47,004 bases of DNA from Gemmatimonadota bacterium. GTDB lineage: Bacteria; Gemmatimonadota; Gemmatimonadetes; Gemmatimonadales; GWC2-71-9. Made by a program: the position numbers and the translations under genes. The stretch covers positions 1 to 47,004 of the forward strand of contig QHVB01000038.1 in assembly GCA_003222195.1 (NCBI GenBank). Direction: 5' to 3'. Shown here piece by piece: positions 2,136-45,725 of the stretch (positions are counted from its first letter, which is position 1; every line of letters starts with the position of its first letter). The notes below the pieces were generated by a model. It saw only the letters and a program-made list of their open reading frames with translations. It was not told the DNA's origin and did no database searches.

Positions 2136-2153
2136 CGCAATCCCTCGCGTCGG

Positions 2154-10549: not shown

Positions 10550-10566
10550 GGGTCGATCTCCTCGGG

Positions 10567-17226: not shown

Positions 17227-17772
17227 TTATTTCCCGAAGCTCAGCCCGACCGTGATCGGCAGGAAGGTCAGCCTGCTCGTCCCGTCGGTGGCGACTGACG
17301 TGTACCGACTGCCCACCACGAGGCGCGTGCTGCTCGTGCCCATCTTGAAAGCGACGGCCGCACCACCACCGAAGCCCAGCTTGGACTGCTTGGGCGTGCC
17401 TCCGCCGAAATCCATGTTATAGAAACCGACGCCGGCCGTCAGCATGAAACGCGCAGGCGCGCTGGCGGGCTGCAAGGCATAAACAAAGGACGCCGTGCCA
17501 CCAATAATCTTGGTGTTGCCGGTGACGGGACTCTTGTGGGCTGTAGAGGAATACGACACGTCGCCCCTGACGCCGATGTTGCCTGTTCCCGGCAGCCAGT
17601 AAGTGGCGCCGACGCCGCCGACGAAGCCCATCTTGTCGGCAGTGTTGTAATCACTCACGGGCATCAGCAAACCTGCCTGCACGCCATAGCGCAGATGACC
17701 CTGCGCCATCGCGGTGCGGGTGGCGGTCACACACAGCGCCACCGCGAGCATTGCCAGTCCGAGCCGCTTCAT
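17227..17772 (-). CDS. Outer-membrane beta-barrel protein (OmpA/OmpW-like size)
   Basis: A 181-residue exported protein. The ATG has a GGAGG ribosome site. The signal peptide (MKRLGLAMLAVALCVTATRT) is cut at AMAQ. The mature part begins LRYGVQAGLLMPVSDYN and continues as alternating strands (GNIGVRGDVSYSSTAH; FMLTAGVGFYNMDFGGG), ending LPITVGLSFGK, as expected of an eight-stranded barrel of the outer-membrane protein beta-barrel group. It precedes a good terminator and is a single unit. The specific role is unknown. Confidence 0.8.
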   Translation of the reverse strand: MKRLGLAMLAVALCVTATRTAMAQGHLRYGVQAGLLMPVSDYNTADKMGFVGGVGATYWLPGTGNIGVRGDVSYSSTAHKSPVTGNTKIIGGTASFVYALQPASAPARFMLTAGVGFYNMDFGGGTPKQSKLGFGGGAAVAFKMGTSSTRLVVGSRYTSVATDGTSRLTFLPITVGLSFGK

Positions 17773-27709: not shown

Positions 27710-27783
27710 GCGCCCATAGCTCAACTGGATAGAGCGCTTGACTACGGATCAAGAGGCTGGGAGTTCGAGTCTTCCTGGGCGCA
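27710..27783 (+). tRNA. tRNA-Arg(ACG)
   Basis: A 74-base cloverleaf: acceptor GCGCCCA/TGGGCGC, anticodon stem CTTGA/TCAAG with loop CTACGGA (anticodon ACG, read as ICG), discriminator A. It starts five bases after tRNA-Val. Its 3' half is overlapped on the other strand by the last codons of the DUF5107 gene. Confidence 0.95.
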
Positions 27784-29512
27784 TGGAATCATCCTCAAAC
27801 TCGCGGTACGCACCAAACCGCGCCAATCGATCTTCGCCGAGCTGAGACGGCACCGGCACGCACGGTTCGTGCAGTTTCTGGCAGAGCTCATTCCACAACA
27901 TCGTTCGTACGTAACGCTGGTGGATTTTCTGGAACGGGACGGATAGCAGAAGTTCTTTCGCCCTCTGCAATTCTCCTTTGTCGATCAGCAGCTGCACGCG
28001 TCGCTCGACGACCCGCTCGTCCTCGATTGGGTCCGCTTCATCCAGCCATCGCTCGCGTTCGGGGATCGTTTCGGCTCCCGCGCGGCGCAGCACGTCGTCG
28101 CGCTCCGCAACGATCTGCGGATGCGACTGCAACGTCGCTTCGCGAATCGAGCGGAAGGCCCGCCTGGCGCCCTCGACATCACCGTCGAGTCTGAGCAGCC
28201 TGGCGAAGAGCGCCTGAGCCACGCCCAGATTGCTCGCGGCAAGGACGCGCATCGCGTCCTCTTTTTGGCCCCGTCCTGCGAGCCAGGCACCATAATGGAA
28301 TCTCCACCGGTCGACCGTGGCGTTGGGCGCACTCCCAATCGCCCACTCAAAGGCCGCACCGAGACCTTCCATACCCGAAGGCGCCCACCGGCACTCATCT
28401 GCTTGAGGCGGCTCGCGTAATCCGCCCTTGGTCTTGTGTGCGCTCGCGAGATCCTTCCACACCCGGACTTCATCCTCACGGGCCCAATCGAAGAGCGGAA
28501 CCTCGCTGCTCGGTCTGAGCTGGATGTCGGGAACCGTTAGGGAGGGGATGTCGCGGGCTTCATCGGCCGGAATCCAGAACTCGACGTGCCATCGTGTCTC
28601 GTGGGGCTGGAGCATCAACTTCGTCGCCTGATCCTTGAGCGGCCCACCCTGGATCTCCACATACGCTCGCGTCGCCCACGCGCGGTCCTCCCCGACGCCA
28701 TAGCTCCACAACTTCATTCCGGGTGCCAGCGAGGCATCGGCAACGTGATAGAGTCCGGACCCCAGGGAGGGTGTAAAGGCACCAAATGCGTTTACGTCCT
28801 TTGTCTTCCAGAAAAAGCCCGTCATCTCCTCAATATCGGATTCGCACCTCGGACCGGAACGCCGCCAGTCGATGACGCGCAGCGAGGACGAATGGCTCAA
28901 CACCTCGCCGTCAGGAAAACAAAACTCCGTGTCCGGCGCCGACGGCAACGCGGCATTGGACCACGACATCCAGGGGTAGGCCGATGGTCCAGGATTGTGA
29001 AACACGGCGCGCTGTGTGAGAAAATCGTCACCGGGGCCGAGGGAGTATTCGACCGACCACTGCATGCCAAAGTGCAGCTCCCGCTCCCCGCAGGTCACAT
29101 AGACGCGTGATGTCGTACGATCGATCCGGGAGAGTACGGGCTCGTTCTGCGTGGGAGAATGAGAAATCGGAAAGCTGACCGCGATCCCGCCGGCGACAAA
29201 AGCGAATCGCGGTAATATCCGCACCGGCTTGATGACGTCCGGCGCGTACAGCACCTCTTTGCCTGAGCCCTTATGAATGAGGGATGTGACCCTACCGCCG
29301 AGATCAGGGCAGATGACTACTCGGAGTCGATCATTCTCCAACGCGATGAACCGGTACTGCTTCCGTACCGGTCGCGGCGAGGTTTCTACGTAGCTGACGT
29401 AGGGATAGACACCATCGGGATCGAATGCCGTCGGGACCGGACCAGCCGGCGTGAGTTTATGCGTGAGGACGTCACCCTGAAACTCAGTACAGATTACGGC
29501 GTTATCGCCCAA
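27749..29512 (-). CDS. DUF5107 (sugar-mutarotase-like) protein with C-terminal helical repeats
   Basis: A 587-residue protein without a signal peptide. The N-terminal half is a DUF5107 domain of the galactose-mutarotase/aldose-epimerase fold: YRFIALENDRLRVVICPDLGGRV, then VIKPVRILPRF and VAGGIAVSFPISHSP. The C-terminal half (about 400-560) is helical and TPR-like. The only usable start is a TTG at 29512 that overlaps the preceding gene by 11 bases. The last residues (GRLELPAS) are antisense translation of tRNA-Arg. Family members usually accompany carbohydrate-use genes; this one closes the sugar locus. Exact activity unknown. Confidence 0.85.
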   Translation of the reverse strand: MGDNAVICTEFQGDVLTHKLTPAGPVPTAFDPDGVYPYVSYVETSPRPVRKQYRFIALENDRLRVVICPDLGGRVTSLIHKGSGKEVLYAPDVIKPVRILPRFAFVAGGIAVSFPISHSPTQNEPVLSRIDRTTSRVYVTCGERELHFGMQWSVEYSLGPGDDFLTQRAVFHNPGPSAYPWMSWSNAALPSAPDTEFCFPDGEVLSHSSSLRVIDWRRSGPRCESDIEEMTGFFWKTKDVNAFGAFTPSLGSGLYHVADASLAPGMKLWSYGVGEDRAWATRAYVEIQGGPLKDQATKLMLQPHETRWHVEFWIPADEARDIPSLTVPDIQLRPSSEVPLFDWAREDEVRVWKDLASAHKTKGGLREPPQADECRWAPSGMEGLGAAFEWAIGSAPNATVDRWRFHYGAWLAGRGQKEDAMRVLAASNLGVAQALFARLLRLDGDVEGARRAFRSIREATLQSHPQIVAERDDVLRRAGAETIPERERWLDEADPIEDERVVERRVQLLIDKGELQRAKELLLSVPFQKIHQRYVRTMLWNELCQKLHEPCVPVPSQLGEDRLARFGAYREFEDDSMRPGRLELPAS

Positions 29513-31319
29513 GTCGGTCGCTCAACGCCTCCAGCATGCGCAGGCCTTTGTGGACGGCTTCCGTGATCCTCGACTGATCATAATTCCGTTTGCTGTAATC
29601 CGGATCGCCGACAAAGGTACGCAACAGAGCGTCCAGATCTCGCAGCTGGCGTCCCGACGCCCGAGCCTTCAGGATCTTGATCTTCTCATAGTCCACGATC
29701 CCTTCGCGCAGCTTCTCAAAGCGCACGCTGCTGCCCGCGCCCGGATAGACGAGAAACTCGTCTCCCGCGGGCCACAACGCGTGGCGGGCGTCACGCACCG
29801 GATCGGCCGGCCAGGCATCGTAGGCCCAGCGTAAGAAACCATCATATCCGTACGCCGCCGCATACCAACCGATGTACCGGCCTTCAATCGGCGGCGAAAA
29901 CACGAAGGTGTTGGGCTTTTGCGGTGTGCAGCACACGTAGTAGGTGGTTGTGGACCCTCGCGCGGAACGCGCCCTAAGCTCCTGCTGGCTCGGCTCACTG
30001 GTGATGATGGGAGAGTAATCGTCGAGCAGCGAGTCCAACTCCGTATGCCAGTTGCCGGCGTAGGTGATCTTCCATTTGGGAGAATGCGCCCTGATCACGC
30101 GGATCGCGGCGAGGGTGAGCGGCATTTCATTTTCGTTGATGCCGAGATAGGTGCGATCGAACCAGCCGCGCTGCTCCAGGTGGGCCTTGAGATCGTCGAG
30201 AAACACGCGCCACACCGCCGCGAATGTCGCGGAGTCGGGCGCCCATGTCTCGGAGACGTAGTTTCCAGAGCGCCCGTCGAGGTAGCGGAAGCGGTTCCCC
30301 CAGGGCAGCGGCGTATAGATCGTGATCGCTTTCGTCACGCCGACGGCGGTGGCCAGCTCAACGTACTGATCGAAGATGTTGTAATCGAATTTCCAAGTCC
30401 CATCAGCCCGCTTGGTCCATTCGATCATTGCCCCTTCGATCATGTAGGAATTGTCCGACCAGGGGGAATGAACGGCGTAGGTCGTGATGTACTTCCCGCC
30501 GGCATCCGCGTACAACTTGAGATGCCGCCGCAATAGTGCTTTGTGTTCTTCCGACCAGGGTTCGACGTGATAGTACCAGGCCACTACCCAGGGATTCTGC
30601 CATAAGTCCAATCTGAACTTCCAATCACCAGGAGGCGGCAAGGTTTGGTCTTGGACCGTGATTGCTACCCGCAGTGTCGCACGGCCTTTTTCAGAACTGA
30701 CGTCCACTGTTCCCCGGTACACGCCGGGTGACGTGCCCGCGGGAATGTCCAGCGACAGCCAGATCGGCCTGACGCTGTGCGCTGGCAGATCGAACCGTTG
30801 GAACGGCTCCAGCCGGTCCGGCATGAGATAGGGCGGGTTCGAATCCGTCGCGCCACAGCTGACCTCGTTAGCGCCGTAGGGGTAGTTCGAGACGACATAA
30901 CGGACCAGATAGACCTGCGCGTTGCGGCTCGCGAGCGTGGCGCCGTTCGCGTTGACGAGATCGCTTACGGCGACGCGTATCTGGTTCACGGTATCCGGTG
31001 ACCAAACCACCAGCTCCGCATTCAACCGTTCGCCTTTCCAGCCGGTGGCTTCCCACATCTGGGATTGCTGCGGCAGGTCCGGCACCTCGCTGCGGAAGTA
31101 TGCCTGGTCGGTGGAAGCGAACGAGACGTTGAGCGCCTTCGGTTGGAGCGCCCACCTTTGTGGATTGCTCGGCGCGTCGAACGTGTATTCCGGTTGAAAG
31201 TGGAACGGCGGAACACGGACTTTGGCAGGATCAAGGCGTGCGCGCTGGATTCCGTCCTGGCCCTGCACCTGGGCGGTGACCAAACACGAGAGGCAACAGG
31301 CCGTCAGGATGCGGCGCAT
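29502..31319 (-). CDS. GH123-like / DUF4091 putative glycosidase
   Basis: A 605-residue exported protein from an ATG sharing one base with the susD stop (TGATG). The signal peptide ends near QVQGQ (about residue 21). A beta-sandwich domain (about 45-225) precedes a catalytic-type TIM barrel (about 235-520) of the DUF4091/GH123 kind. GH123 enzymes remove terminal beta-N-acetylgalactosamine by substrate-assisted catalysis using an adjacent Asp-Glu pair. The matching spot here appears to be GINENEMP (Asn395-Glu396), with Asn where Asp is expected, so activity on an N-acetylated sugar is unproven. It probably acts in the periplasm on glycan brought in by SusCD. Confidence 0.78.
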   Translation of the reverse strand: MRRILTACCLSCLVTAQVQGQDGIQRARLDPAKVRVPPFHFQPEYTFDAPSNPQRWALQPKALNVSFASTDQAYFRSEVPDLPQQSQMWEATGWKGERLNAELVVWSPDTVNQIRVAVSDLVNANGATLASRNAQVYLVRYVVSNYPYGANEVSCGATDSNPPYLMPDRLEPFQRFDLPAHSVRPIWLSLDIPAGTSPGVYRGTVDVSSEKGRATLRVAITVQDQTLPPPGDWKFRLDLWQNPWVVAWYYHVEPWSEEHKALLRRHLKLYADAGGKYITTYAVHSPWSDNSYMIEGAMIEWTKRADGTWKFDYNIFDQYVELATAVGVTKAITIYTPLPWGNRFRYLDGRSGNYVSETWAPDSATFAAVWRVFLDDLKAHLEQRGWFDRTYLGINENEMPLTLAAIRVIRAHSPKWKITYAGNWHTELDSLLDDYSPIITSEPSQQELRARSARGSTTTYYVCCTPQKPNTFVFSPPIEGRYIGWYAAAYGYDGFLRWAYDAWPADPVRDARHALWPAGDEFLVYPGAGSSVRFEKLREGIVDYEKIKILKARASGRQLRDLDALLRTFVGDPDYSKRNYDQSRITEAVHKGLRMLEALSDRLGR

Positions 31320-32971
31320 CACCAGCCCGGGTTCTGAGTGAGCGTGCCGTGCGACAATTGAATCTGCTGCAACGGAATCGGATCGAGATAATGCTTCGGG
31401 ACGACGAATTGGCGTGAGGCCGCCGCCTCCGCGACTATGAAGCCGTTGGCATCGACCTGGATATCCGAACCAATCTGCAAGCCGGGATAGCGGGTTTGAT
31501 ATTCCGTGCCGACGAATTTGACGCCCCTGAGGGCCTGCGGCATCTCGGTTTCCGCCGTCTTCCAGCGCCGCAGGTCGTCACGCCGGTATCCCTCGAAGGC
31601 CAATTCCACGGTCCGTTCTCTCCGGATCTCCGTCAACATGTCCAACCCGTTGGCGGATACAAAGCCGTTGGTCAACGACGGCATGCCCGCCCGGGCACGC
31701 AGCAGATTGATCGTCCGGTTCAGGTCGGCGTCAGAGATCACACCGTCGCGCTCAAAGAGGGCCTCGGCGAGAATCAACAACACCTCGCCGTAGCGAAATT
31801 CCTTGAAGTCATACTCGCCGGCAAACTGCGTCGCCTCGACCGTTTCGTCCAAGAATTTGCGCAGCATGTAGCCGGTGCGGGTCGCGTTACTGCCGGAGAA
31901 ACCCGGAAAAACCGGCTGGAACCCGCTCTCCTGGAACACGTCGCTGCCCGGGACGACAAACGTCATCGCCATTCTGGGGTCGCGGTTCTGGAATTCACTC
32001 TTTAGCGAATCGTATCCCTTGAACAGCGGCGAGCTGGTGATGGGCAAGCCGTCCGTGGCCAGATACATGTCCGCCAGCTTCTTCGTGGGGATCATGTAAT
32101 TGAACCACAGCTCCCGAGTCCAATTGTGCGTGGCGCGGCCGGCGTAATAGCGCCGCGCCAAAATCACCTCCGGGCTGTCATCCCCTTGCAGGATGAACAA
32201 GTACTTGTAGCTCTGCGCGCCCTGGCCGGCATACAGTTGATACTCACCCGATGCGACGAGTTGGTCCGCGGCAGTGATCGCGGCCGTGAGCATCGCGGTG
32301 GGGCTCCCTTCCGCGTGGTACTTGAGCCACGTGGCCTGGTACAGCGCCGCCCGGGCCTTCAGCGCGAGTGCCGCGCCTTGGGTCACCCGGCCCATCTCGT
32401 CGGCGCCGAGCTGACTCTGCTTGAGGAGCTTCGGCACGGCGTTGTCCAAGTCAGCGAGGATGAAATCGATGATTTGTTGTTGGGTGGATCGCGCCGTGTA
32501 GACCTCTGGCGAGGTCACGTCGAGCACTTTGGTGATCAGCGGCACGCCGCCGTAGGTCTTCACCAGGTTCCAGTAGTGATACGCCCGGAAGAACAGCGCT
32601 TCACCGACCCAGCGATCGATCTGCGTTCCCAATCCGGATTCCGCGGCTTTCGTGAGCAAATAGTTGGTGGCGCGGATGCCTGCATAGGACTTATCCCACA
32701 AGTCGGAATTGGCAGCCGGCAGATACGACCCATTACTCACGGACGACATTTGCGTGCTACCGCTGCCGGTCGCAATATCCGAACTGATTTCGGTCCAGTT
32801 ATCGGCGCCTTGCAACCCGTAATAGAAATCATTGGCAGCGAGTCTGAACTGGTCTGGAGTCTTCCAGAACGAGGCGTCGGAGACCTGATCCTTCGGACCG
32901 AGAGTCAGGTCCTTGCAGCCCAGCGCCAGCATGAGGAGGGCGCCGGTATATGTGACAGTGAGCCGGTTCAT
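31319..32971 (-). CDS. SusD/RagB-family lipoprotein of the sugar locus
   Basis: A 550-residue SusD-like lipoprotein. The lipobox is at Cys19 (LALGC), followed by the DQVSDASFWKTPDQFRLAANDFYYGL opening that is classical for SusD. The RYGEVLLILAEALFE helix and the WKTAETEMPQALRGVKF end region are also typical. It differs markedly from the two SusDs in the left part of the window and is closer to the standard Bacteroidetes form. It follows susC by 14 bases and is coupled to the glycosidase-like gene, so it should capture the glycan at the cell surface. Confidence 0.93.
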   Translation of the reverse strand: MNRLTVTYTGALLMLALGCKDLTLGPKDQVSDASFWKTPDQFRLAANDFYYGLQGADNWTEISSDIATGSGSTQMSSVSNGSYLPAANSDLWDKSYAGIRATNYLLTKAAESGLGTQIDRWVGEALFFRAYHYWNLVKTYGGVPLITKVLDVTSPEVYTARSTQQQIIDFILADLDNAVPKLLKQSQLGADEMGRVTQGAALALKARAALYQATWLKYHAEGSPTAMLTAAITAADQLVASGEYQLYAGQGAQSYKYLFILQGDDSPEVILARRYYAGRATHNWTRELWFNYMIPTKKLADMYLATDGLPITSSPLFKGYDSLKSEFQNRDPRMAMTFVVPGSDVFQESGFQPVFPGFSGSNATRTGYMLRKFLDETVEATQFAGEYDFKEFRYGEVLLILAEALFERDGVISDADLNRTINLLRARAGMPSLTNGFVSANGLDMLTEIRRERTVELAFEGYRRDDLRRWKTAETEMPQALRGVKFVGTEYQTRYPGLQIGSDIQVDANGFIVAEAAASRQFVVPKHYLDPIPLQQIQLSHGTLTQNPGW

Positions 32972-32985
32972 GAATGGGCGCCCCG

Positions 32986-35900
32986 TTAGAAGGTGATATC
33001 CATGCCGAAGGAGTACAGCCGCTGGAATGGATAATTGAAGCCAAGCGCGGGCGATTCAGGATCCCAGCCGCCCTTCACGTTGTGCTTTTCCCAGAGGTCG
33101 AACCCGCTAAAATAGACTCTCGCTCGCGTCATTCTTGCCCGCGCGATCAGACGCTCGGGGAGGGAAAACCCGATCTGCAGGTTTTTCAGCCGCAGATAGG
33201 CCGCATTAGTCGCCTGTAACGTGGACGGCTGATAGTTCCAAAACCGGATGTTGCCATGCGTGAGTCGGGGATAGGGAGCGTTGGGACGATCTTCATTCCA
33301 TGTCTGGTTGTAGTAAAACAGCGGCGGTTGTCTCCACCAGTCGCTCCACGGCATCCGGTACTCGCCGTCCCTAAACAGTGTCCGTTTCCCGACACCCTGC
33401 ATGAAGATGCTCACATCGAGGCGCCGCCACTTCGCGTCGAGATTGAGGCCATACGTGTACCGCGGTGACGTGTTCCCCAGATAGACGACGTCCCCGTCTT
33501 TACCCGGGGTATCGCCGTACAAGCTGATTTTCCCGTCGCCGTTCACGTCCTTGTATCGCGCATCGCCGATCCCGATGTCGCTGGGGACGCCCGGGATTTT
33601 TTTGTAGGCATCGAGCTCCGCCTGGGTGCGGATCAGCCCATCGAACACGTAGCCGAAGTACGAACTGACCGGATAGCCTTCCCGGATGTAGTTCCAGCCC
33701 AAGTCGTAGGTGTCCTGCCCTCCGTAGTTCACGACCTTGTTCTTGGCATCACTGAGACTCGCTCGCGCAGAAACTTGAACGGCGCGAACGTGACCTTTCC
33801 ATCCCAATGATGTTTCGAAGCCCCAGGTCTTGACCCGGCCCGCATTCGAGTATGGCGGCACGGCACCCAGGATGCTGGGATAGGCAACGGGAACGAGCAT
33901 GTCGCGATTGTTCTTGATGAAATAGTCAAACGTGAAGTCGAGCTTCGAAGACAACAGGGTCGCGTCCACGCCCACGTTGCTCGTGGCGATCGTCTCCCAC
34001 GTCCTGTTCGTGGAAACCATGCCGGAGAGGTATGCCGATTGATCCTGTCTCCCCGCGCCGAAGGGATAATACGGATCATACGGCCACTGCCTGCCGATGG
34101 TGATCAGTTGGAGGTAGTCATAGAGACCGATGCCTTCCTGATTCCCGTTTTCTCCGTACGAGGCGCGTAGTTTCAGATTATCGAACAGGGCGAGGTGACG
34201 GCGCGCAAATGGCTCTTCGGAGACCCGCCAGGCGACCGACACACCGGGGAAGAACCCCCACCGTTTGTCGGGGGAGAAACGGGAGCTCCCATCGTAGCGG
34301 AGCGTGGCATCGAGGAGGTACTTGTTGCTGAAGCCATAACTCAAGCGGGAGAAGAGCGATCGGATCGCCCACTGCTCACCGCCGCCGCCGGTCGCCATGT
34401 TGCCGGTCGAGCCGAGATTGAGTCCCCACACGTCCTGGCTCGTAAAGTCGGATCTGCCGGCCTGGAACCAATCCAGGTCGTGGTCTTCGTGCGACACGCC
34501 CCCCATGAGCTCGACAGCGTGCCGCTCACCGAACGTCCTGCTGAACTCGGCATACCCGACGTAGTTTCTGTTGAGTGTGGTCCCATTGTACCGGGTTACC
34601 CAGTTCTGATCGGGATTCGCGATGGAATAGTAGGCGATGCTGCTGTCATCCCACCGGTATAACGGGGAAGACTTGCCGATGTCGGTGTTGTCCTCCGTCC
34701 GGTAATTGATGCCGGACTGGAGATTCAGCTTCAGTCCATCCAACGGCTCGACGATCAACTTGAAATTGGTATTGACACCGCGCGTGGCAAACGTGGCCGT
34801 CGCGGCTTCCTTGGCCTGCGCGACGGCGTTCCCCCACCCCCCTTGAGCAAAAAAGTGTTGACCACTCCGTGTATAAATGGGATGGTTGGGCATGCCGAAG
34901 ATCGCTTCCACGACGAGCCACGGACAGCTACACCACGACGCGTGGCTGAGGCCGCCGATGTCCGACCTGTCCTGATTGTCGAGCGACAGTTTTGACTCCA
35001 ACCGGATCCGCCTGGAAAAATCGTAGTCGTAATTCAGTCTGAGGTTATAGCGCCTGTTATTGTCGTTGGCATAGCGAATCACGCCATTCAGGTCGGAATA
35101 GCCCGCCGAGACGTAGTAGCTGGAATTCTGGCCTCCTCCGGAAACCGTCAGCGTGTGCTTCTGCTCAAATCCGTCTTCGAACACGGCTTTCCGCCAATCG
35201 GTGGACGTAAAAAAGAGCATCCACCCCGAACTGCCGTAGATCGGGTGCGGGATGGGATTGGGATCGCCCGCTTTTACCCGTGCCAGCAGGTCGGGCGTAT
35301 ACAACGGCGCCGCGCCGTTGTGGATATTCGCCTCATTATCCATGATCGCCATCTGATAGTTATTAGGAGTATCCATCATCCCAGTCAGTTTGGTGATCGC
35401 GGCGTTGGTGCTGTACGTAAACGTTGGCGCACCGCGCGCGCCTTTCTTGGTCGTTACAAGCAGGACTCCATCAGCCGCACGGGCTCCATAGATAGACGCG
35501 GCGGCATCCTTCAACACCGAGATGGTTTCGATGTCGGCGGGGTTTAACAGATCGAGGTTTCCCGGGATGCCATCGATCAACACGAGCGGAGAATTCCCTC
35601 CGCTGGAGGCGTACAACTGCTGCGGGTCTTTGGGAATGGATGAAACGCCCCGCAGATTGAGACTAAAGTCTTCGACTCCGGGTTGTCCCCCCGAGCGCTC
35701 CACCACCACTCCTGGAATGACGCCCTGAATGGCCGTGAGCGTGTTCGTGATCGGGCGAGATTCCAGCGCTTCCGAACCAATGGAAGCAACGGCTCCGGTG
35801 ACATTCTCCCTCGTCTTTTCACCGTAGCCCACGGCCACGACCGCCTCCAGCTCGATGGCCTGCGCCTTGAGCTGAAGGTTCACGATCGCCTGCTGCCCCT

Positions 35901-36537
35901 CCGCGACGACGACGGTGGTGTCGGCGGGCGTGTAGCCCAGCATCCGGGCCCGCAGCCGTTGCGTCCCCACCGGCACGCTGGCGATGACATAGTGGCCCGC
36001 GCTGTCGGTCTCGGTGGTGAGCCGCGTCCCGGCGACGCTCACGATAGCGCGCGCCAGAGGCTGGCTGTTCTCCGCCGCCGTGACCGTTCCGGCGATGGAA
36101 CCCAACTGCACGGCCGGCCCCTCGGGCCGTTTGACCAAGGTGGCACGGCCATCCGTCGTGAACACAATGTCCACGCCCGCGTCGAGCAGCACGTCCGTCA
36201 GTGCCGCCGCGACAGTAATGCGGTCCGCGCGCAGACTCACAGTGGCGTCGATCGGCAACACGTCGTCGGCGTATACCAGATTGAGTCTCGCTTGCCGGGA
36301 GATCTCTGCGAGCGCCTGCTTGAGCGGGACGCCGTCAAACGCGAGCGAGAGCGGTTGCCGCAACACCGCCGAGCGCTTGAGGTCAACCGGTACCGGCTCC
36401 GAGCGCTCCGCCATTGCCAGCAGGAATCGCGGGGCCCGGCTTGCGCCCGGGCTACTCGCGTATTGCGCAGCGGCGCCTGGCGGGAATAGCGCCAGCACCG
36501 TTGCCAGCATGAGCAGGAACAACGCAACGCGGTTCAT
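32986..36537 (-). CDS. SusC/RagA-family TonB-linked transporter with STN signalling domain
   Basis: A 1183-residue TonB-dependent transducer. A signal peptide (ends about residue 24) is followed by an STN domain (about 58-125: LKQALAEISRQARLNLVYADDVL), a carboxypeptidase-regulatory-like domain (about 148-225: GSIAGTVTAAENSQPLARAIVSV), a plug (VGYGEKTRENVTGAVASI) and a barrel ending RLYSFGMDITF. The STN domain is what contacts FecR-type sensors, and a fecR gene lies 33 bases upstream, so this transporter likely reports substrate to the ECF sigma factor at 40897-41499. GGGGAG ribosome site. Confidence 0.95.
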   Translation of the reverse strand: MNRVALFLLMLATVLALFPPGAAAQYASSPGASRAPRFLLAMAERSEPVPVDLKRSAVLRQPLSLAFDGVPLKQALAEISRQARLNLVYADDVLPIDATVSLRADRITVAAALTDVLLDAGVDIVFTTDGRATLVKRPEGPAVQLGSIAGTVTAAENSQPLARAIVSVAGTRLTTETDSAGHYVIASVPVGTQRLRARMLGYTPADTTVVVAEGQQAIVNLQLKAQAIELEAVVAVGYGEKTRENVTGAVASIGSEALESRPITNTLTAIQGVIPGVVVERSGGQPGVEDFSLNLRGVSSIPKDPQQLYASSGGNSPLVLIDGIPGNLDLLNPADIETISVLKDAAASIYGARAADGVLLVTTKKGARGAPTFTYSTNAAITKLTGMMDTPNNYQMAIMDNEANIHNGAAPLYTPDLLARVKAGDPNPIPHPIYGSSGWMLFFTSTDWRKAVFEDGFEQKHTLTVSGGGQNSSYYVSAGYSDLNGVIRYANDNNRRYNLRLNYDYDFSRRIRLESKLSLDNQDRSDIGGLSHASWCSCPWLVVEAIFGMPNHPIYTRSGQHFFAQGGWGNAVAQAKEAATATFATRGVNTNFKLIVEPLDGLKLNLQSGINYRTEDNTDIGKSSPLYRWDDSSIAYYSIANPDQNWVTRYNGTTLNRNYVGYAEFSRTFGERHAVELMGGVSHEDHDLDWFQAGRSDFTSQDVWGLNLGSTGNMATGGGGEQWAIRSLFSRLSYGFSNKYLLDATLRYDGSSRFSPDKRWGFFPGVSVAWRVSEEPFARRHLALFDNLKLRASYGENGNQEGIGLYDYLQLITIGRQWPYDPYYPFGAGRQDQSAYLSGMVSTNRTWETIATSNVGVDATLLSSKLDFTFDYFIKNNRDMLVPVAYPSILGAVPPYSNAGRVKTWGFETSLGWKGHVRAVQVSARASLSDAKNKVVNYGGQDTYDLGWNYIREGYPVSSYFGYVFDGLIRTQAELDAYKKIPGVPSDIGIGDARYKDVNGDGKISLYGDTPGKDGDVVYLGNTSPRYTYGLNLDAKWRRLDVSIFMQGVGKRTLFRDGEYRMPWSDWWRQPPLFYYNQTWNEDRPNAPYPRLTHGNIRFWNYQPSTLQATNAAYLRLKNLQIGFSLPERLIARARMTRARVYFSGFDLWEKHNVKGGWDPESPALGFNYPFQRLYSFGMDITF

Positions 36538-38178: not shown

Positions 38179-39957
38179 TCAGCCTCCACCAGCCTCCTGC
38201 TTCCCCCACATCCTCGGCACCAGGCGCAACAAGCCGAAGCCACTAGCCAGGAAGACCGCCGCCCACAGGATCGCCTGTGGCGTCCGCCCGTACAGCGCGC
38301 TGCCGGTGCCGAACAACGCGGCATAGATGAACGCACAGCCGAACACCCAGCCGAGCAGGGAATTGGGCAGGCTGTCCGGCGAGGAGGGCAGACCGGCCTC
38401 CTGGCGGATCGACTCCCAACCAGGTCCGGCCGGACGCACCAGCTTGTAGAAGGAGAGCAGCGTCGTTCGATCCGTCGGTGACGTGAGGTAGGCGACCGCC
38501 ACCCACACGACGGTCGTGATGGCGACCGTAAAGATGAGCGAGATGTGCCCCGGCAGCGCGTGGCCTGCCCTGGCGGCGATCGCGAATCCGAGCGCCAAGA
38601 GGAACGAGCTGACCATCGCGGCCACCTCGCACCACGCGTTGACGCGCCACCAGAACCAGCGCAGCAGGTAGATCAACCCGGTCCCGGCCCCGACTGAGAG
38701 GATCAGATCGAAGGCCTGCTTCGAGCTGCTCAGCGCATAGGTCGCGAGCGCGGCGACGATCATGAGCAGGGCCGTCGTGAGACGGCCCACGAGCACGTAA
38801 TGCTTTTCGCTCGCTCCTTTATTCAGGAAGCGGCGATAGAAATCGTGCACTAGGTAGGAGGTGCCCCAGTTGAGATGGGTTTCGATGGTCGAGCGGTAGG
38901 AGGCGAGCATACCGGCGATCATGAACCCCAGAAACGGCGCTGGCAGGAAGCGGTACATCGCCGGATACGCCATGTCGTTCCCGATAAGACTGGGATCGAT
39001 GTAGGGATAGGCCCGAGCGATGTCGGACAGATGCGGGTAAATCACGGTGGACGCAAGGGCAACGAGGATCCACGGCCATGGCCGCAACGCGTAGTGCATC
39101 GCGTTGAAGAGCAGCGTGCCCACCACCGCGTCCTTCTCCGTGCGAGAGGCGAGCATGCGCTGGGCGATGTAGCTCCCGCCCCCCGGCTCCGCGCCGGGAT
39201 ACCAGACAGACCACCACTGAATGGTCAGCGGAATGATCAACACCGACAGCGTAAGCCCCCAGTCGCCGAAATCGGGGATCAGCCGCAACCGCTTGGGGTC
39301 GATTTGGGCGATAAGGCCGGAGAGGCCGCCGACCTGCGGCTGGCTCAGCGCAAAATACGCGAGGGCGAAGGTCGCGGTCATGGTGATGCCGAATTGAATC
39401 GAGTCGGTGACCAGCACACCCCACAGCCCGGAGACCGACGCAAAGAACACCGTCACCACGCCCATGAGCAGCAGCGTTTTCTCGAGGGGCCAGCCGAGCA
39501 CGATGTTGGCGATCTTCGCGGCGGCGAGATTCACCGCCGCCATGATCACGCAGTTGAAGAACAGGCCGAGGTACACAGCGCGAAAACCACGCACGAAGCT
39601 CGCCGCCTTGCCCGAGTAGCGCAGCTCGTAGAACTCGAGATCGGTCAGCACGTTCGAACGACGCCAGAGGCGGGCGTAGAAGAACACCGTCAGCATCCCC
39701 GTCAGGAGGAACGACCACCACAGCCAGTTCTCCGCTACCCCGCTCTCGCGCACCATGTTGGTGACGAGGTTCGGGGTGTCGGTCGAAAACGTGGTGGCCA
39801 CCATCGAGACGCCGACCAGCCACCAGGGCGCGGCTCGGCCGGACGCGAAGAACTCCGTGGTGCTCTTGCTCGCGCGCCGGAAAAAGAAGAGAGCGGGCAG
39901 AAACGACACCGCGATCGAGATGATCACGACGGTCCAGTCAGCGATCGTCACGTGCAT
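38179..39957 (-). CDS. Sodium:solute symporter (SSS family)
   Basis: A 592-residue inner-membrane transporter with about 13-14 hydrophobic segments from TIADWTVVIISIAVSFLPALFF onward. Family blocks include EFFASGRAAPWWLVGVSMVATTFS near the N-terminus, where sodium and substrate bind, and FLGFMIAGMLASYRSTIETHLNWGTSYLVHDFYRRF. The ATG at 39957 is chosen because the 38 upstream codons of the open frame are hydrophilic and out of family. In sugar loci such symporters import monosaccharides released in the periplasm; here N-acetylhexosamine is the natural guess from the neighbours. Ends 31 bases from the convergent DsbA-like fragment. Confidence 0.92.
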   Translation of the reverse strand: MHVTIADWTVVIISIAVSFLPALFFFRRASKSTTEFFASGRAAPWWLVGVSMVATTFSTDTPNLVTNMVRESGVAENWLWWSFLLTGMLTVFFYARLWRRSNVLTDLEFYELRYSGKAASFVRGFRAVYLGLFFNCVIMAAVNLAAAKIANIVLGWPLEKTLLLMGVVTVFFASVSGLWGVLVTDSIQFGITMTATFALAYFALSQPQVGGLSGLIAQIDPKRLRLIPDFGDWGLTLSVLIIPLTIQWWSVWYPGAEPGGGSYIAQRMLASRTEKDAVVGTLLFNAMHYALRPWPWILVALASTVIYPHLSDIARAYPYIDPSLIGNDMAYPAMYRFLPAPFLGFMIAGMLASYRSTIETHLNWGTSYLVHDFYRRFLNKGASEKHYVLVGRLTTALLMIVAALATYALSSSKQAFDLILSVGAGTGLIYLLRWFWWRVNAWCEVAAMVSSFLLALGFAIAARAGHALPGHISLIFTVAITTVVWVAVAYLTSPTDRTTLLSFYKLVRPAGPGWESIRQEAGLPSSPDSLPNSLLGWVFGCAFIYAALFGTGSALYGRTPQAILWAAVFLASGFGLLRLVPRMWGKQEAGGG

Positions 39958-39997
39958 GGGTGCTCGTTGTCCGGAGAGGGAAACGGGTTGCGCAGTC

Positions 39998-40900
39998 TCA
40001 TGCGAGTCGCTCGAATCCGTCTTTGAGGTTCGCGGGGTACTGCCCGGCGTCCACGAGGCGCTGTAGCTCATTTCGTACGGTCATGTCGTCCGCGGAAAAC
40101 GTCATTCCAAACCAGCGCGCGCGCGTTCGCAGCACGCGAACACGCGTGTCGTTCGCCGCCAGCTGCGCACCCACTGCCTCACTCAACAGAAACTCGGCGC
40201 GAGGGTCCGCGCTCCGTGCCTCGAGGAAGGCTGCGAACTGCCGCTCGAGCATAGGCAACACGGCCGGCGTAAAGCCCCAGAGATTCATGGAAACGAGCTC
40301 GTCTCCATGGAGCGAAACCGCCTGCCCAGCCGTGGCGTGACCGGTGAACGCGACGCCGCGCGAAACGATGTCACCCACCTCGGTGAGCCGCGATAAGTAC
40401 CCACGTGCGTCCAGCTCCACAATCGCACGCGAAACGCCGCCATGCGCGGACATCGTCTCGCGCAGCGTGTAGCCGACCAGGGCATGTTCAGCGCCGCCCA
40501 GGAGGTGTTCGAACAACAATCGATATGCGTCCGCGCCGTAGAAGTCGTCCGCATTCATAACGGCAAACGGCCCCCGAGTCCCCCAAGCCGCGGCGAGGAC
40601 GGCGTGCCCAGTCCCCCACGGCTTCGCGCGGCGCGGCGCAGACGGCTCGACGGCCTGGTGCGCAAACACCACCTCGATACCGGTGCCGATGACGTCCGCC
40701 ACGTGGCGACGGAACAGCTCCTCGACTTCCTGGCGAATCACGAACATCACTCTGCGAAAGCCTGCACGCGCCGCGTCGTACACGCCGTAGTCGAGGAGCA
40801 CCTCGCCATTGGGGCCTACCGGGGCAAGCTGTTTGAGCCCGCCGTAGCGCGAACCGAGGCCCGCCGCGAGGACGACGAGTGTGAGGCGAGGTGTGGTTAT
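39998..40900 (-). CDS. Sugar nucleotidyltransferase (NTP_transferase family), non-standard start
   Basis: About 300 residues. The N-terminal nucleotide-binding motif is LAAGLGSRYGGLKQLAPVG, close to the LxxGxGxRxxxxxK pattern of sugar-1-phosphate nucleotidyltransferases. FAVMNADDFYGADAY carries the metal-binding aspartates, and GTGHAVLAA lines the pocket. Relatives sit beside NahK-type kinases and are thought to make UDP-sugars. There is no ATG, GTG, TTG or CTG between the sigma-factor reading frame and the motif; the best start is an ATA at 40900 overlapping the sigma-factor stop as ATAA, the same geometry as the ATGA/GTGA overlaps elsewhere in the window. Start is therefore uncertain, function fairly firm. 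Confidence 0.82.
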   Translation of the reverse strand: MTTPRLTLVVLAAGLGSRYGGLKQLAPVGPNGEVLLDYGVYDAARAGFRRVMFVIRQEVEELFRRHVADVIGTGIEVVFAHQAVEPSAPRRAKPWGTGHAVLAAAWGTRGPFAVMNADDFYGADAYRLLFEHLLGGAEHALVGYTLRETMSAHGGVSRAIVELDARGYLSRLTEVGDIVSRGVAFTGHATAGQAVSLHGDELVSMNLWGFTPAVLPMLERQFAAFLEARSADPRAEFLLSEAVGAQLAANDTRVRVLRTRARWFGMTFSADDMTVRNELQRLVDAGQYPANLKDGFERLA

Positions 40901-41499
40901 TGGGCTTGGCGGATTCGGTCGCGCAGGAACTTCAGGCCCCGGGCGAGTTGCGTCTCGACAGTCTTCTCGCTGATGGCCAGTCGGTGCGCGATCTCGGCGT
41001 AACTCAGACCATCGATCAACCGCAGTCTGCACACCGCGGATCGTTTGGGCGGGAGATCGGCGAGCGCGCGCTCCACTGCCGCGGCGAGCTCCGCCGCTTC
41101 CAGGTCGGGCTGGATGTCCGCTACCGTCACGAGTTGAGCGGTCCCGACCCTCCGCCGGCGCGCCACGGCGGCACGTTGGAGCCGGTCGAGTGCGGCGTTG
41201 CGGACGGCGAGATAGAGGTAGTTCCGCACGGCGCCGGCGGGCACCCAGTCGGCCCGGCCCCGCCAGATCCGGAAGAACACTTCCTGGACGGCGTCTTCGG
41301 CGTCCTGCTGCGAACGCAAGTAGCGAAATGCGAACGCGTAGAGGCGCTCCCAGTACCTGCGATAGAGCGCCTCGAACGCGTCCATATGCCCGGCGCGGAT
41401 GCGATCCGCCCATGCACGCTCGACGGCGTTGGTGCTGACGTCGTCGGAGCCGGTCTCGGGAAGCGGCTCGCTGGCGAAATGGGTCTTGGGTAACGACAT
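40897..41499 (-). CDS. ECF-type RNA polymerase sigma factor (FecI-like)
   Basis: A 200-residue ECF sigma factor. Region 2 spans about 38-80 (AFEALYRRYWERLYAFAFRYL, DAEDAVQEVFFRIW), region 4 about 145-198 (LPPKRSAVCRLRLIDGLSYAEIAHRLAISEKTVETQLARGL). No region 3 or 1, as expected. It likely partners with the FecR at 36571-37581 and the STN-bearing SusC, switching on the uptake genes when the glycan is present. Its stop codon overlaps the proposed ATA start of the nucleotidyltransferase. The ATG has only a weak ribosome site. Confidence 0.93.
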   Translation of the reverse strand: MSLPKTHFASEPLPETGSDDVSTNAVERAWADRIRAGHMDAFEALYRRYWERLYAFAFRYLRSQQDAEDAVQEVFFRIWRGRADWVPAGAVRNYLYLAVRNAALDRLQRAAVARRRRVGTAQLVTVADIQPDLEAAELAAAVERALADLPPKRSAVCRLRLIDGLSYAEIAHRLAISEKTVETQLARGLKFLRDRIRQAQ

Positions 41500-41564
41500 C
41501 GATAGTTACCGGGTGCGTCCGATAGCAATAGCGTGCGCGCAATTTCAACGCGCCGCAAGGTCCC

Positions 41565-42644
41565 TTAGATACCGGTGATGCGGCGACGCAACGGGCGCTC
41601 CTGCTCGAGCAGGGCAGCGAGCAGGGCCAATTGCGTACGACAACGGTCGAGATTATGCCCCGGACGGGCGATGCGATAGTACCGATCGCCTTCGAGATGG
41701 TCGATCAGGAAGCGGACCGCTTGCTCGAACACGATCACCTGCGCGGCTGGCACGAGCAGGTCCCGCTCGGGCGGCGTCAGGAGCTCTCGCATCGCGGCGA
41801 CGTAGCCGCGCGCGATGCTCTCGAACAACTCGGGCTCGAGGCGGACGCGGCTCGTGTCGCGTTCATCTTCGGCCGCGCGAGTCGCCATCGACCGCACGAG
41901 ATCGCCGAAGTCATAGAGCGCTAGCCCCGGCATGACGGTATCCAGATCTACCACGCAGAGTGGTTCGCCGGACGCCGCGTCGAACAGCACGTTGGCGAGC
42001 TTGGCGTCGTTATGCACCACTCGTTCCGGTACCGCACCAGCAGCCGCGGCCTGCACTAAAACCGCCGCGAGATCGCGATGGGCGCGAATCTCGGCGACTT
42101 CAGCACGCGCACCCGCCGCGCGGCCCGCCGCGTCGCGCTGGACGGCGCACTCGAACGATTCCAGCCGGCGCGGCGTGTCGTGAAAGTGCGGGATCGTCTC
42201 GTGCAGCCGCGGGCCCGGGAGATCCCCGAGCGCCCGCTGGAAGGCACCGAACGCGCGCGCGGCGTGCTCGGCGTCCGCAGCGGTGGCGATCGGCCGCGTC
42301 ACCGCGCCTTCGATGAAATCGTACAGCCGCCACACGTCGCCGTGCTCGTCCTGCAGGCACGCGTCTCCGCCTCGCGTCGGCACGAGTCGCAGTGGTCCCC
42401 CGACGTGCTGCGTCACGCGTTTCACGTTCTCCATCAACTCGGCGAGACTGGGAAAGACGTGGGCATTGAGCCGCTGGAGGAAGAACCGGATCGGCCGATC
42501 ACGCGGCGCCCGACCCGACACGATGTACGACGCGTTGATGTGACCGGCAGGTCCTGAGAACGGTTCGACCGTGGCGACGGCGGCACCGGTGGCGAACCGC
42601 GCAGCGACAGCGTGGAGGGACGCCGCTGCGGCGTCGAGACTCAT
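41565..42644 (-). CDS. nahK: N-acetylhexosamine 1-kinase (NahK-like)
   Basis: Predicted to phosphorylate GlcNAc or GalNAc at C1 using ATP, in the cytoplasm. The 359 residues from the ATG at 42644 equal the length of Bifidobacterium NahK as I recall it, with matching blocks along the whole protein: GHINASYIVSG, FFLQRLNAHVFPSLAELMENV, ETIPHFHDTPRRLESF, the catalytic HNDAKLANVLFD (Asp213) and the metal-binding VVDLDTVMPGLALYDFGD (Asp233). The aminoglycoside-kinase-like fold is shared with homoserine and choline kinases, but the ETIPHFHDTP block is specific. It starts eight bases after the TPR-barrel gene and lies beside a nucleotidyltransferase, the expected partner. Confidence 0.85.
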   Translation of the reverse strand: MSLDAAAASLHAVAARFATGAAVATVEPFSGPAGHINASYIVSGRAPRDRPIRFFLQRLNAHVFPSLAELMENVKRVTQHVGGPLRLVPTRGGDACLQDEHGDVWRLYDFIEGAVTRPIATAADAEHAARAFGAFQRALGDLPGPRLHETIPHFHDTPRRLESFECAVQRDAAGRAAGARAEVAEIRAHRDLAAVLVQAAAAGAVPERVVHNDAKLANVLFDAASGEPLCVVDLDTVMPGLALYDFGDLVRSMATRAAEDERDTSRVRLEPELFESIARGYVAAMRELLTPPERDLLVPAAQVIVFEQAVRFLIDHLEGDRYYRIARPGHNLDRCRTQLALLAALLEQERPLRRRITGI

Positions 42645-42651
42645 ACGCCCA

Positions 42652-44646
42652 TTAGCGCAATGCCCATTGTAGCGAGGTGGCCGCCGAGACGTAGCGCCAA
42701 CTCCCTGCGCTCGTCGCTGCCTCGTTCCCGGCGGCGTAGTCCTCGAGGCCAAGGTCGATTTTCAAATCGCATCCCGGTGCGAGCGGCAGCACGATCGATG
42801 AGTACAGGCTCAGGGCCCGCTGCCACGGCCCCAAACCAGCGCTGAACTTAGCGACGCGTTGCACTCCCGCGCCAACATCAAATGAGAAGAGAGCTCCATT
42901 GGGCGTCTCGAACTCGAGGTACGACCCCGCTTGCACGACCTGGGCGAGCCGCGGCGCGAAATAGCCCACCGTGTCCGGATGGTCGTAGCGGATCTGGTTG
43001 AACCGCGCCGACAGCTCCACGCTGGGCGCCGCGGCGAACGCGACGACGCCGGCGAGCGCCATCCTGTGATTCGTCTCGGTAGGATCGCTCAGCGACGCCG
43101 CGCGCGCGATGCCACGAAGCTTCACCACGCGGGCCACGGGCAACTCGAAGGTGCCGCGAAACTCGGTGCGCGCCGCGCGATTCGTCACGAGGCGCGGGGA
43201 AGCGTCCAGCACATTGCGCTGCAGGCGCAGGTCAAGAGCCGGTCCCAGCGGGAGCGGGCGCCAGCGCGCCCGCAACTGCCCCGTGGGCGTGCTGGTCGCG
43301 CGCGCGCCAGCGATCGCGTCCAGTGCCGTCACCCCCCCGGACGCCTCAACTTGCAGCACTGCCCGCGGTCGCCACGTCGCGCGCAGCCCGACGTCCGTGA
43401 GGGCAGTGGTCGTCACGCCATCGGCGACCCGCTCGTGACCCGCCGTCACTCCGAGCCGGAAGGGCGCTGACACAGTGAGTTCGGCGGCGCCGCCCAGCCG
43501 CAGTGTCGCGTTGCCGTCCGAGTCGTGGCTGCCGCTCACTTGCGGTCCGAGCGCGGGAGCCGCTGCGGCCTCAGCCAGCGCGAGCCGCCGGTCCGTCGTC
43601 TGATCGGGGACGATCGCTTGGGCACGTGCGAAGGCACGTGCCGCATCCGCCGGGCGGCCGGCGCGGGTCTGCTCACGGCCCAACTCGCGCCATGCCTCGA
43701 CATCCGTGCCGTGCGCGTCGAGCCACTGTTCGTACGCCGCAATGGCGGCGTCGGTCCGCCGCGCACGCGCGAGGACGCGCGCCCTTCCGACGACTGCGTC
43801 GCGTTCGCCGGGCGCAAGGCGCACGGCCTGGTCGTAGCAGCGCAGTGCGTCACCGTACCGCCCCGGCCCCCAGCGCGCCAAGACGGCACCGACCGCTATG
43901 TACCCCCACGGGTCTTCCGGTTCGAGCGCCACATAGCGCTGAAACAATCGCAGCGCCTCGGCACGGTCCGCCGAGAGCTGGGCGAGGCGGTAAATGGCGT
44001 GGGTATTCTCGGGGTCGACCGCGAGCACGGCCGCGTAGTGCCGTGAGGCGATGCTCGTGCTGCCCGCGGTGAACGCGGAGTCCGCTCGCGCGAGGGCTAC
44101 CGCGACGCGAGAGCGAACGGGGGGCCGATGTTGTGCCCGCGCGTTCCCGGGATGGCTCGCCGCTGCTGCTTCGAAGAGCAGCAGCGCGATGAGCGTCCGG
44201 GCCCGTCGCCGTTCACCGCCGGCGGCGGCCCGCGGCTCGATAGGCGCGGGCACGTCGCGCTCGCGCGGGGCGCGGGTGGACGCGCTGCCGCCCGAACCTG
44301 CCCGGCCGTGGATCCAGAACCGCAGCAGCTCCACCGCCGCCAGCACCGCGGCAAGCGTTCCGATCGAGAGGACGAGCGCGGCGATCCGGAGCACGTTGCT
44401 CGGAACCGAACCGAGGGCGAGTCGCGCCGGGTGTTGCGTGGCGTGGAGGGCAGCGCCGAGCAGGCGTCCCGTCAGGAACATTCCCACGATCATGCCGCCC
44501 GCGATCGCAAGTTGGCCGGCCACTATCCGCCAGCCGCCCGAGGCAAGGCCGCGTATCCGTCGGTACGCCTCCGACAGCGGCATCGCGAGCGCGCTCAGCA
44601 GGTAGAACATCCCGCCGATCCCGGTGCCCGGGAGCCCCACGGTCAT
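42652..44646 (-). CDS. Inner-membrane/TPR/outer-membrane-barrel fusion protein (polysaccharide export candidate)
   Basis: A 664-residue protein from the ATG at 44646. Segments in order: hydrophobic helices at about 11-24, 40-67 and 86-112, a charged Pro/Arg linker, a second signal-peptide-like stretch at about 147-172 (TLIALLLFEAAAASHPGNARAQ), TPR repeats (about 185-345, each with the A-x-x-x-Y or ALRCYDQAVRLAPGE pattern), and from about 365 alternating strands of an outer-membrane barrel like YaiO or the PgaA/BcsC export porins. A protein carrying both inner-membrane helices and an outer-membrane barrel is unusual; no standard internal start separates the parts. It is two bases from the glycosyltransferase stop, implying a joint role in making and exporting a polysaccharide. 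Confidence 0.75.
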   Translation of the reverse strand: MTVGLPGTGIGGMFYLLSALAMPLSEAYRRIRGLASGGWRIVAGQLAIAGGMIVGMFLTGRLLGAALHATQHPARLALGSVPSNVLRIAALVLSIGTLAAVLAAVELLRFWIHGRAGSGGSASTRAPRERDVPAPIEPRAAAGGERRRARTLIALLLFEAAAASHPGNARAQHRPPVRSRVAVALARADSAFTAGSTSIASRHYAAVLAVDPENTHAIYRLAQLSADRAEALRLFQRYVALEPEDPWGYIAVGAVLARWGPGRYGDALRCYDQAVRLAPGERDAVVGRARVLARARRTDAAIAAYEQWLDAHGTDVEAWRELGREQTRAGRPADAARAFARAQAIVPDQTTDRRLALAEAAAAPALGPQVSGSHDSDGNATLRLGGAAELTVSAPFRLGVTAGHERVADGVTTTALTDVGLRATWRPRAVLQVEASGGVTALDAIAGARATSTPTGQLRARWRPLPLGPALDLRLQRNVLDASPRLVTNRAARTEFRGTFELPVARVVKLRGIARAASLSDPTETNHRMALAGVVAFAAAPSVELSARFNQIRYDHPDTVGYFAPRLAQVVQAGSYLEFETPNGALFSFDVGAGVQRVAKFSAGLGPWQRALSLYSSIVLPLAPGCDLKIDLGLEDYAAGNEAATSAGSWRYVSAATSLQWALR

Positions 44647-44648
44647 CG

Positions 44649-45725
44649 TCAGTGTCCCTTCTCGTACACGTGCCAGGAGCGGCCGAGCACAAACTCCGCA
44701 CACGCCGCTTGCAGAAAGAAGAGCGCGTTGACGGTGCGCAGTACGAAGAACGCGGGGAGGCTTGCGAGCGCGCGCGGCACCTCCCGCCGCCGCGCCGCGC
44801 CCGCGAGTACCGGAACGAGCACGGCCGGCGCGTCGATCACGTAACCCAGCAAGATCCACGGACTCGCAAGCAGGACGGCCAGGATCGGCAGCAGCATCAG
44901 GTACACCACCGCCGCGATGGTCGCATCCCAGAGCGCTACTGCCACTGCCGAGCGCAGGTAGGGTACGCCGAGGAGACCGCGCCAGTGCAGCCGCACGTTC
45001 TGGAGGAAGCCGTGCGACCAGCGTCGCAGTTGCTTGCGCATGAGGGTGAAGGTGTGGGGCTCGATCGGGTAGCAGACTGCCTCAGGCACGAAGCGCACCT
45101 CGTTGCCTGTCTGGTAGAGGCTCCACGTCAGGTCCATGTCCTCGGCGAGGGTACGGTTGGACCAGCCGCCGTGATCTCGCAGGATCGCCGTGCGGTACAT
45201 CGAGAAGCATCCCGAAGAAATGAGTGGCTTGCCGTAATACTCCTGCACTCGCTTGTAGAATGTGAACGCGAACAAGTACTCGATGTAGCGCCCCCGCTCC
45301 CACACGCTGCGCACGCGCTGGGGCAATACGAATCCGCACGCCGCTGCGATGCCCGGGCGCTCGAACGCCAGCAACAGCCGCTCGAGGGCGTCAGGCGCGA
45401 GTACGGTGTCGGCGTCGATCGCGACCGTGAGGGCCGTGCGGACGTGGCGCAGCGCGAACGTCTGGGCGCCTGCCTTGGAGCCCGTGTTCCGCGGGGGGCG
45501 AACGACGGTGACCCCCAACGCACGCGCCACGTCGCCCGTGCCATCGGTGGAGCAATCGTCCACGACGATGATTTCGGAGGGGCGCTCGGTCTGGACCTGG
45601 AGGCTCCGGATCGTGTCGGCCACGCTCGCCGCCTCGTTGTAAGCGGGGACGATGACCGTCACGTCGCGCCCGGCAAAGGCCGGGCGAAGGGGAGGGCGGG
45701 GGCTGGCCGCAAGCTTGCGTCGCAT
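44649..45725 (-). CDS. Processive family-2 glycosyltransferase (PgaC/hyaluronan-synthase-like)
   Basis: A 358-residue membrane glycosyltransferase. The GT-A domain shows VTVIVPAYNEAASV (22-35), VDDCS (55-59), the DAD metal site (104-106), the catalytic-base region EDMDL (195-199) and QLRRW (232-236), the D,D,D,QxxRW set of processive polymerases of beta-linked sugars. About three membrane helices follow (residues 250-345). It lacks the N-terminal helices of PgaC. Between an epimerase gene and an export-barrel gene, it probably polymerises a UDP-hexose or UDP-N-acetylhexosamine into an extracellular polysaccharide. Sugar identity not determined. Confidence 0.88.
   Translation of the reverse strand: MRRKLAASPRPPLRPAFAGRDVTVIVPAYNEAASVADTIRSLQVQTERPSEIIVVDDCSTDGTGDVARALGVTVVRPPRNTGSKAGAQTFALRHVRTALTVAIDADTVLAPDALERLLLAFERPGIAAACGFVLPQRVRSVWERGRYIEYLFAFTFYKRVQEYYGKPLISSGCFSMYRTAILRDHGGWSNRTLAEDMDLTWSLYQTGNEVRFVPEAVCYPIEPHTFTLMRKQLRRWSHGFLQNVRLHWRGLLGVPYLRSAVAVALWDATIAAVVYLMLLPILAVLLASPWILLGYVIDAPAVLVPVLAGAARRREVPRALASLPAFFVLRTVNALFFLQAACAEFVLGRSWHVYEKGH

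Follow-up and report, generated by a model that had tools for sequence, protein, structure and literature searches.

Machines of the bacterial cell envelope are usually assembled from separately made parts, which are sorted to each membrane. The locus described here raises the question whether a single gene can supply parts for both membranes. Within the window (the whole stretch of 47,004 nucleotides that was analysed, which is the entire contig C23 of a genome of 95 contigs that is 99.79% complete), an open frame starts at an ATG and runs on the minus strand from 44646 to 42652. It encodes a protein of 664 amino acids in which predicted membrane helices precede TPRs and a putative outer-membrane barrel. 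We consider it probable, at roughly 0.7, that this protein is one precursor from which signal peptidase produces two proteins, a partner in the inner membrane that is PgaD-like and a pore that is PgaA/BcsC-like.

Organisation of the fused gene and its partner

The preliminary description of this DNA had proposed a single frame with three membrane helices, an internal signal-like segment that runs to ARAQ, TPRs and a barrel. The open reading frame, hydropathy, Pfam matches and structure models all confirm this layout, the features of which are the following.

42652..44646, minus strand: fused gene, comprising inner-membrane helices, linker, internal signal peptide, TPRs and outer-membrane barrel; open frame; 14 of the 17 genomes with the helix domain have the fusion
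44554..44619, minus strand: first membrane helix region, residues 10-31 (hydropathy, model helices 10-19 and 21-31, conservation)
44419..44532, minus strand: second membrane helix, residues 39-76 (hydropathy, model)
44296..44400, minus strand: third membrane helix, residues 83-117 (hydropathy, model)
44200..44295, minus strand: Arg-rich linker of variable length, residues 118-149, predicted to be cytoplasmic (charge counts; dN/dS of 0.33-0.58 in six pairs; frame kept over 29-61 codons)
44134..44199, minus strand: internal signal peptide, residues 150-171, with a predicted signal peptidase I cut at A171/Q172 (site motif, conservation; R150 and Q172 shared by all ten complete fusions)
43561..44109, minus strand: TPR domain, residues 180-362, 12 helices or about six TPRs (Pfam TPR families; model pLDDT about 90)
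42655..43566, minus strand: outer-membrane barrel, residues 361-664, modelled with 16 strands (barrel folded alone; structure matches)
44649..45725, minus strand: partner gene, a GT2 synthase-type glycosyltransferase (Pfam PF00535, motifs DDCS/DADT/AED/QLRRW, NCBIfam, PDB, adjacency in 17 of 17 loci)

Hydropathy shows four peaks ahead of the TPRs, at residues 10-24, 46-60, 88-102 and 149-163. The AlphaFold model of the full chain likewise has helices at 10-31, 39-76, 83-117 and 144-162, followed by the twelve TPR helices (180-362) and then by strands; its pLDDT is below about 55 ahead of residue ~178. A GLPGTGIGGxFYLxSA stretch, spanning residues 4-9 and the first helix region (10-31), is conserved.

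The ATG of the fused gene lies only 2 nt past the end of the GT2 gene. The window GT2 protein carries DDCS at 56, DADT at 104, TLAEDMD at 192 and QLRRW at 232, and thus the complete motif set D, DxD, ED and QxxRW that marks processive GT2 enzymes. Its best NCBIfam profile is PgaC_IcaA, with a score below the cut-off, and among solved structures a PDB sequence search matched it best to the cellulose synthase BcsA (E 4.3e-11). The GT2 gene was found directly upstream of the helix domain in all 17 loci; when nine window genes were compared across the relative loci, no other was regularly kept beside it.

Inner-membrane part

The preliminary description had called the inner-membrane part PgaD-like in position. 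Position and topology agree with this; homology to PgaD was not found. In a Pfam search for a PgaD family match, the helix domains of the window protein and of the relative in genome G027 matched nothing up to an E of 10, that of the relative in G115 gave only DUF6215 at E 0.24, and a profile of the helix domain gave one chance-level match among PDB sequences (FlhB, E 4.6). It is the gene order that suggests that the helix domain may bind the GT2 enzyme as a PgaD-like partner.

Distribution of the fusion

Relatives were collected by a whole-protein search within the genus and by a profile of the helix domain in the family, a sample of the phylum, the order and the class, which are overlapping sets. 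Full-length fused relatives are present in 4 of the 10 genomes of the genus, the window's included. The helix domain was detected in 13 of 102 genomes of the family, in 14 of 395 sampled from the phylum, in 16 of 288 of the order and in 10 of 393 of the class. Pooled, these sets hold 17 distinct Gemmatimonadota genomes with the helix domain: 14 with the fusion, two in which the parts are split and one (G237) in which the contig ends before the join. The 14 in-frame fusions are spread over seven genera and three families. Ten are complete to the stop codon (G000, G008, G002, G001, G071, G064, G070, G066, G073 and G228) and four are cut later by N or contig ends, G061 by a run of N within the TPRs, with the barrel afterwards in another frame, and G075, G171 and G450 by a contig end after the signal peptide. 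In the split relatives the stop of one gene overlaps the start of the next, by 14 nt in G027 and 4 nt in G115.

A scan of wider genome contigs with the single protein returned no matches; an alignment-based scan returned at least ten loci among the matches listed. One of these, L087, was dropped because it matched over just 54 residues of TPR. The remaining nine correspond to G001, G002, G008, G061, G066, G070, G071, G073 and G075, all Gemmatimonadetes metagenome genomes, and were counted once.

Two variants of the domain layout were observed. In the closely related G002 (L039:6630-8375) and G001 (L040:7341-9092), about 64 residues of the TPR domain of the window protein are missing, which leaves some 133-135 residues from the cut site to the barrel. 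In G115 (L074:6594-7577) the barrel gene, with an apparent TTG start that overlaps the previous stop, encodes a signal peptide followed directly by the barrel, without TPRs.

The internal signal peptide

The internal segment of the window protein is R150-TLIALLLFEAAAASHPGNARA/Q172, where the slash marks the predicted cut and the hydrophobic stretch ends in HPGNARA/Q. Three AxA/Q-like sites occur in the protein, and only A171/Q172 has a strongly hydrophobic stretch just upstream (Kyte-Doolittle value over 10 residues of 2.44, versus 0.77 and -0.45 at the other two). The marks of a signal peptidase I substrate are all present, i.e. a positive n-region, a hydrophobic h-region and small residues at -3 and -1. 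R150 and Q172 do not vary among the ten complete fusions, of which the window protein is one, and residue 171 is A in nine and G in one; the stretch around them is otherwise poorly conserved, so the site looks like more than a chance occurrence. The signal peptide ends in [A/V/S/G]-x-[A/G] followed by Q in every one of the 14 fusions. A Q at +1 is also found in both split relatives, where the product of the barrel gene begins with an ordinary signal peptide (SKA/Q in G027, TRA/Q in G115). The unfused and more distant TPR-barrel proteins in L042, L043, L044 and L045 have, by eye, ordinary signal peptides that run to AQ, L041 being less clear. Among the N-termini of 25 other frames of the window, the signal peptides of the TonB-dependent receptors at 2154, 10567 and 32986 and of the protein at 17227 end in AAAQ, VAAQ, AAAQ and AMAQ, respectively. 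Counting against a precursor that is cut here, dN/dS of the signal-peptide stretch exceeds 1 in two of six close pairs.

Lysines and arginines were counted in 12 of the 14 fusions (G171 and G450 were not included, and for loop 2 G228 was left out as well, giving 11). They number 4-6 in loop 1, 1-2 in loop 2 and 3-11 in the linker. Since loop 1 and the linker hold most of the positive charges and loop 2 has few, we infer that the N-terminus lies outside, the linker inside and the end of the signal outside. The N-in/C-out orientation is the one that a signal peptide needs.

The same segment might also act as a fourth helix, which would tie the inner-membrane part to the pore in one uncut chain across both membranes. 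The conservation of the fusion in 14 genomes is what one would expect if covalent linkage mattered, but the signal-peptidase-I-like site with its Q at +1 has been kept in all 14 as well. Moreover, the parts are separate genes in two relatives, and because such split relatives exist, covalent linkage is not needed to keep the parts together. From the cut site to the DSDGN motif at the start of the barrel there are 133-203 residues in the ten complete fusions, mostly folded TPRs, and given the dimensions of the periplasm this seems too short to cross it. We regard a permanently uncut chain as unlikely, and similarly doubtful is a polypeptide, uncut or only partly cut, that spans both membranes with its helices beside the synthase, short TPRs and an export barrel; if this were true, synthesis and export would be covalently coupled.

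TPR domain and barrel

That the C-terminal part forms a barrel, on which the preliminary description depended, held up in the structure models. Folded alone, it has 16 strands at a middling mean pLDDT of 67 and is closest to PgaA, BcsC and PelB; the full-chain model has 15 strands, at moderate confidence. Foldseek with the barrel alone ranked PgaA (4y25, E 9.1e-5) first and PelB (9h80) second. With VIA-align, the four best matches were BcsC 9b8h (Z 16.7, rmsd 4.3, 272 aligned), PgaA 4y25 (Z 16.7, rmsd 4.6, 269 aligned), BcsC 9b8a (Z 16.0, rmsd 4.9, 275 aligned) and BcsC 6tzk (Z 15.6, rmsd 5.0, 275 aligned). The full-chain model matches BcsC over 568-613 columns. Two marks of the PgaA/BcsC-type exporters are therefore present, a modelled 16-strand barrel like those of the solved exporters and TPRs directly before the barrel, which are probably periplasmic. 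In profile searches, the PgaA export porin family (TIGR03939) scored 25.6 bits, with a cut-off of 366.65, and the barrel profile had no match among PDB sequences up to E 10.

The barrel might instead belong to a different 16-strand porin, or to a receptor, that carries TPRs and does not export polysaccharide; OprD-family porins come next in the VIA comparison (Z ~15), with other porins at Z 13-15. However, the first four VIA matches and the first two Foldseek ranks are all taken by polysaccharide exporters, BcsC is the sole protein with TPRs plus barrel in the 50 matches listed for the full chain, and a GT2 synthase-type gene adjoins in 17 of 17 loci. We judge such a porin or receptor improbable. 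Although the margin over the other porins is small, the order of the matches points, as do the TPRs and the neighbouring gene, to a barrel of the polysaccharide-exporter type, as judged by the best matches of the model.

One translation product or two

Between helix 3 and the cut site the linkers range from 29 to 61 codons, and the frame is kept in all 14 fusions. Linker dN/dS is 0.33 to 0.58 and below 1 in each of six close pairs, where the stretches are short and each single value is rough; as the ratio is below 1 in all six, we conclude that the linker is translated. An open linker frame was rejected as sole proof of translation: G+C-rich linkers are often open in other frames too, and stops occur in the +1 frame of 4 and in the +2 frame of 6 of the 14 fusions. 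The argument therefore rests on the keeping of the frame over many lengths.

The preliminary description had left two options, a fusion precursor that is cut or an unusual internal start. In the latter case, one frame would yield two proteins, the second from a start codon just ahead of the signal peptide. A GTG does lie 20 to 40 codons ahead of the site in some of the fused genes, in a few of them near a GAGG- or GGAGG-like stretch, and G070, G001 or G008 might conceivably make a very short signal peptide that begins at -17 or -18, or unusual start codons might be used. In six of the 14 fusions (G008, G001, G070, G066, G073 and G075), however, there is no ATG, GTG or TTG from -40 to -19 codons of the cut site, and in G066 and G073 there is none from -48 to the site. 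The sole candidate in the window linker is a GTG at -39 codons, without a Shine-Dalgarno-like stretch, and where relatives truly have two genes, the stop of the first overlaps the start of the second instead. Because a usable start is missing in these six, the internal start is disfavoured and was rejected as a general mechanism, though not for every genome. We hold it to be quite improbable, and the cut fusion precursor is the favoured option.

Origin of the fusion

In a tree of the GT2 proteins the split relative G027 is at the base and the fusion has a single origin, with weak support (61/72), which is compatible with the fusion having arisen once from an overlapping gene pair. That the two parts are really separate genes, as in G027 and G115 where they overlap, and were joined here by a sequencing or assembly error can be dismissed, because the relatives are mostly fused too, the identical in-frame join being present in 14 genomes (the window's included) on separate contigs as opposed to two split and one cut off, and the linker being under selection (dN/dS).

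Proposed mode of action

In the favoured reading, the precursor cut by signal peptidase, the locus would be a two-gene, three-part system for exopolysaccharide synthesis and export. The GT2 enzyme would build the polymer at the inner membrane. From the second gene one precursor would be made, the three N-terminal helices of which would stay in the inner membrane beside GT2, in the role that PgaD has for PgaC. Helix 3 would return the chain to the cytoplasm, and the Arg-rich segment with the hydrophobic stretch would then act as an ordinary signal peptide, N-in/C-out. Signal peptidase I would cut after A171, and the chain released from Q172 would insert into the outer membrane as a 16-strand barrel, its TPRs remaining periplasmic, as in PgaA and BcsC. 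The cleavage after A171, the 1:1 ratio of the products and the export function are deduced from these features, and the fusion may be a way to obtain equal amounts of both parts from one translation start.

Comparison with known systems

A close parallel is the PNAG system PgaC/PgaD/PgaA, which likewise has a GT2 synthase, a small inner-membrane partner and a protein with TPRs and a 16-strand barrel, PgaA 4y25 being the top Foldseek match of the barrel. Here, in contrast, a single open frame that contains an internal signal encodes both partner and pore, the PgaA profile is far below its cut-off and the PgaD family gives no match. In addition, a Pfam scan of the seven genes between 38179 and 46726 found no deacetylase among them. 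Exporters of the PgaA/BcsC type have an N-terminal signal peptide, as do the split relatives, whereas the signal of the window protein is at residues 150-171, after three helices. BcsC shares the TPRs and the barrel (Z 15.6-16.7); its only signal peptide is N-terminal, its TPRs are far more numerous, and no inner-membrane part is fused to it. PelB of the Pel exporter also resembles the barrel (Foldseek rank 2, Z 14.5), but the make-up of the Pel operon differs from this locus.

A precursor of comparable design is FbcH of Bradyrhizobium, the cytochrome b/c1 precursor, in which inner-membrane helices and an internal signal peptide are part of one chain that is cut by signal peptidase. Both products of FbcH remain in the inner membrane and the respiratory chain, whereas here one product would go to the outer membrane. 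The parts are thus of a known kind, that of a synthase-dependent exopolysaccharide system, and a membrane precursor cut by signal peptidase is a known principle as well; it is the exporter fusion crossing the envelope that we did not find described. A literature search for an inner- to outer-membrane exporter fusion returned no description. Subunit fusions in synthase-dependent exopolysaccharide operons include BcsZC, a periplasmic hydrolase with a pore, and BcsAB, two inner-membrane subunits (PMC7112194); the passages of that survey that bear on fusions name none between inner and outer membrane, and the word Gemmatimonad* is absent from its text.

The fusion appears to be a conserved case in which one precursor supplies a subunit for the inner membrane together with a pore for the outer one, and the two would then be held to a 1:1 ratio. 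With two genes, it would be a very small synthase-dependent exopolysaccharide system, and the cutting by signal peptidase inside a multi-helix membrane precursor becomes directly testable. The bacteria of this group live in soil, and they likely have a machine for the export of a sugar polymer with its inner and outer parts in one long protein. To our knowledge, the polymers of the Gemmatimonadota have been little studied.

Other genes of the window

Downstream of the fused gene (38179-42644, minus strand) Pfam identifies an APH-family phosphotransferase, an ECF sigma factor, a sugar nucleotidyltransferase-like protein and an SSF transporter, a set suggestive of sugar salvage. When 15 relative loci were compared, no relatives of these genes were found next to the fusion, except for weak matches in L075 to the sigma factor and to the upstream epimerase. 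At 27749-36537 (minus strand) a SusC/SusD-like pair is accompanied by a DUF5107 protein and a glycoside hydrolase of family GH123, which resembles a glycan-use locus, and two more pairs of a TonB-dependent receptor and a SusD-like protein are located at 651-5513 and 9119-13833, both on the minus strand.
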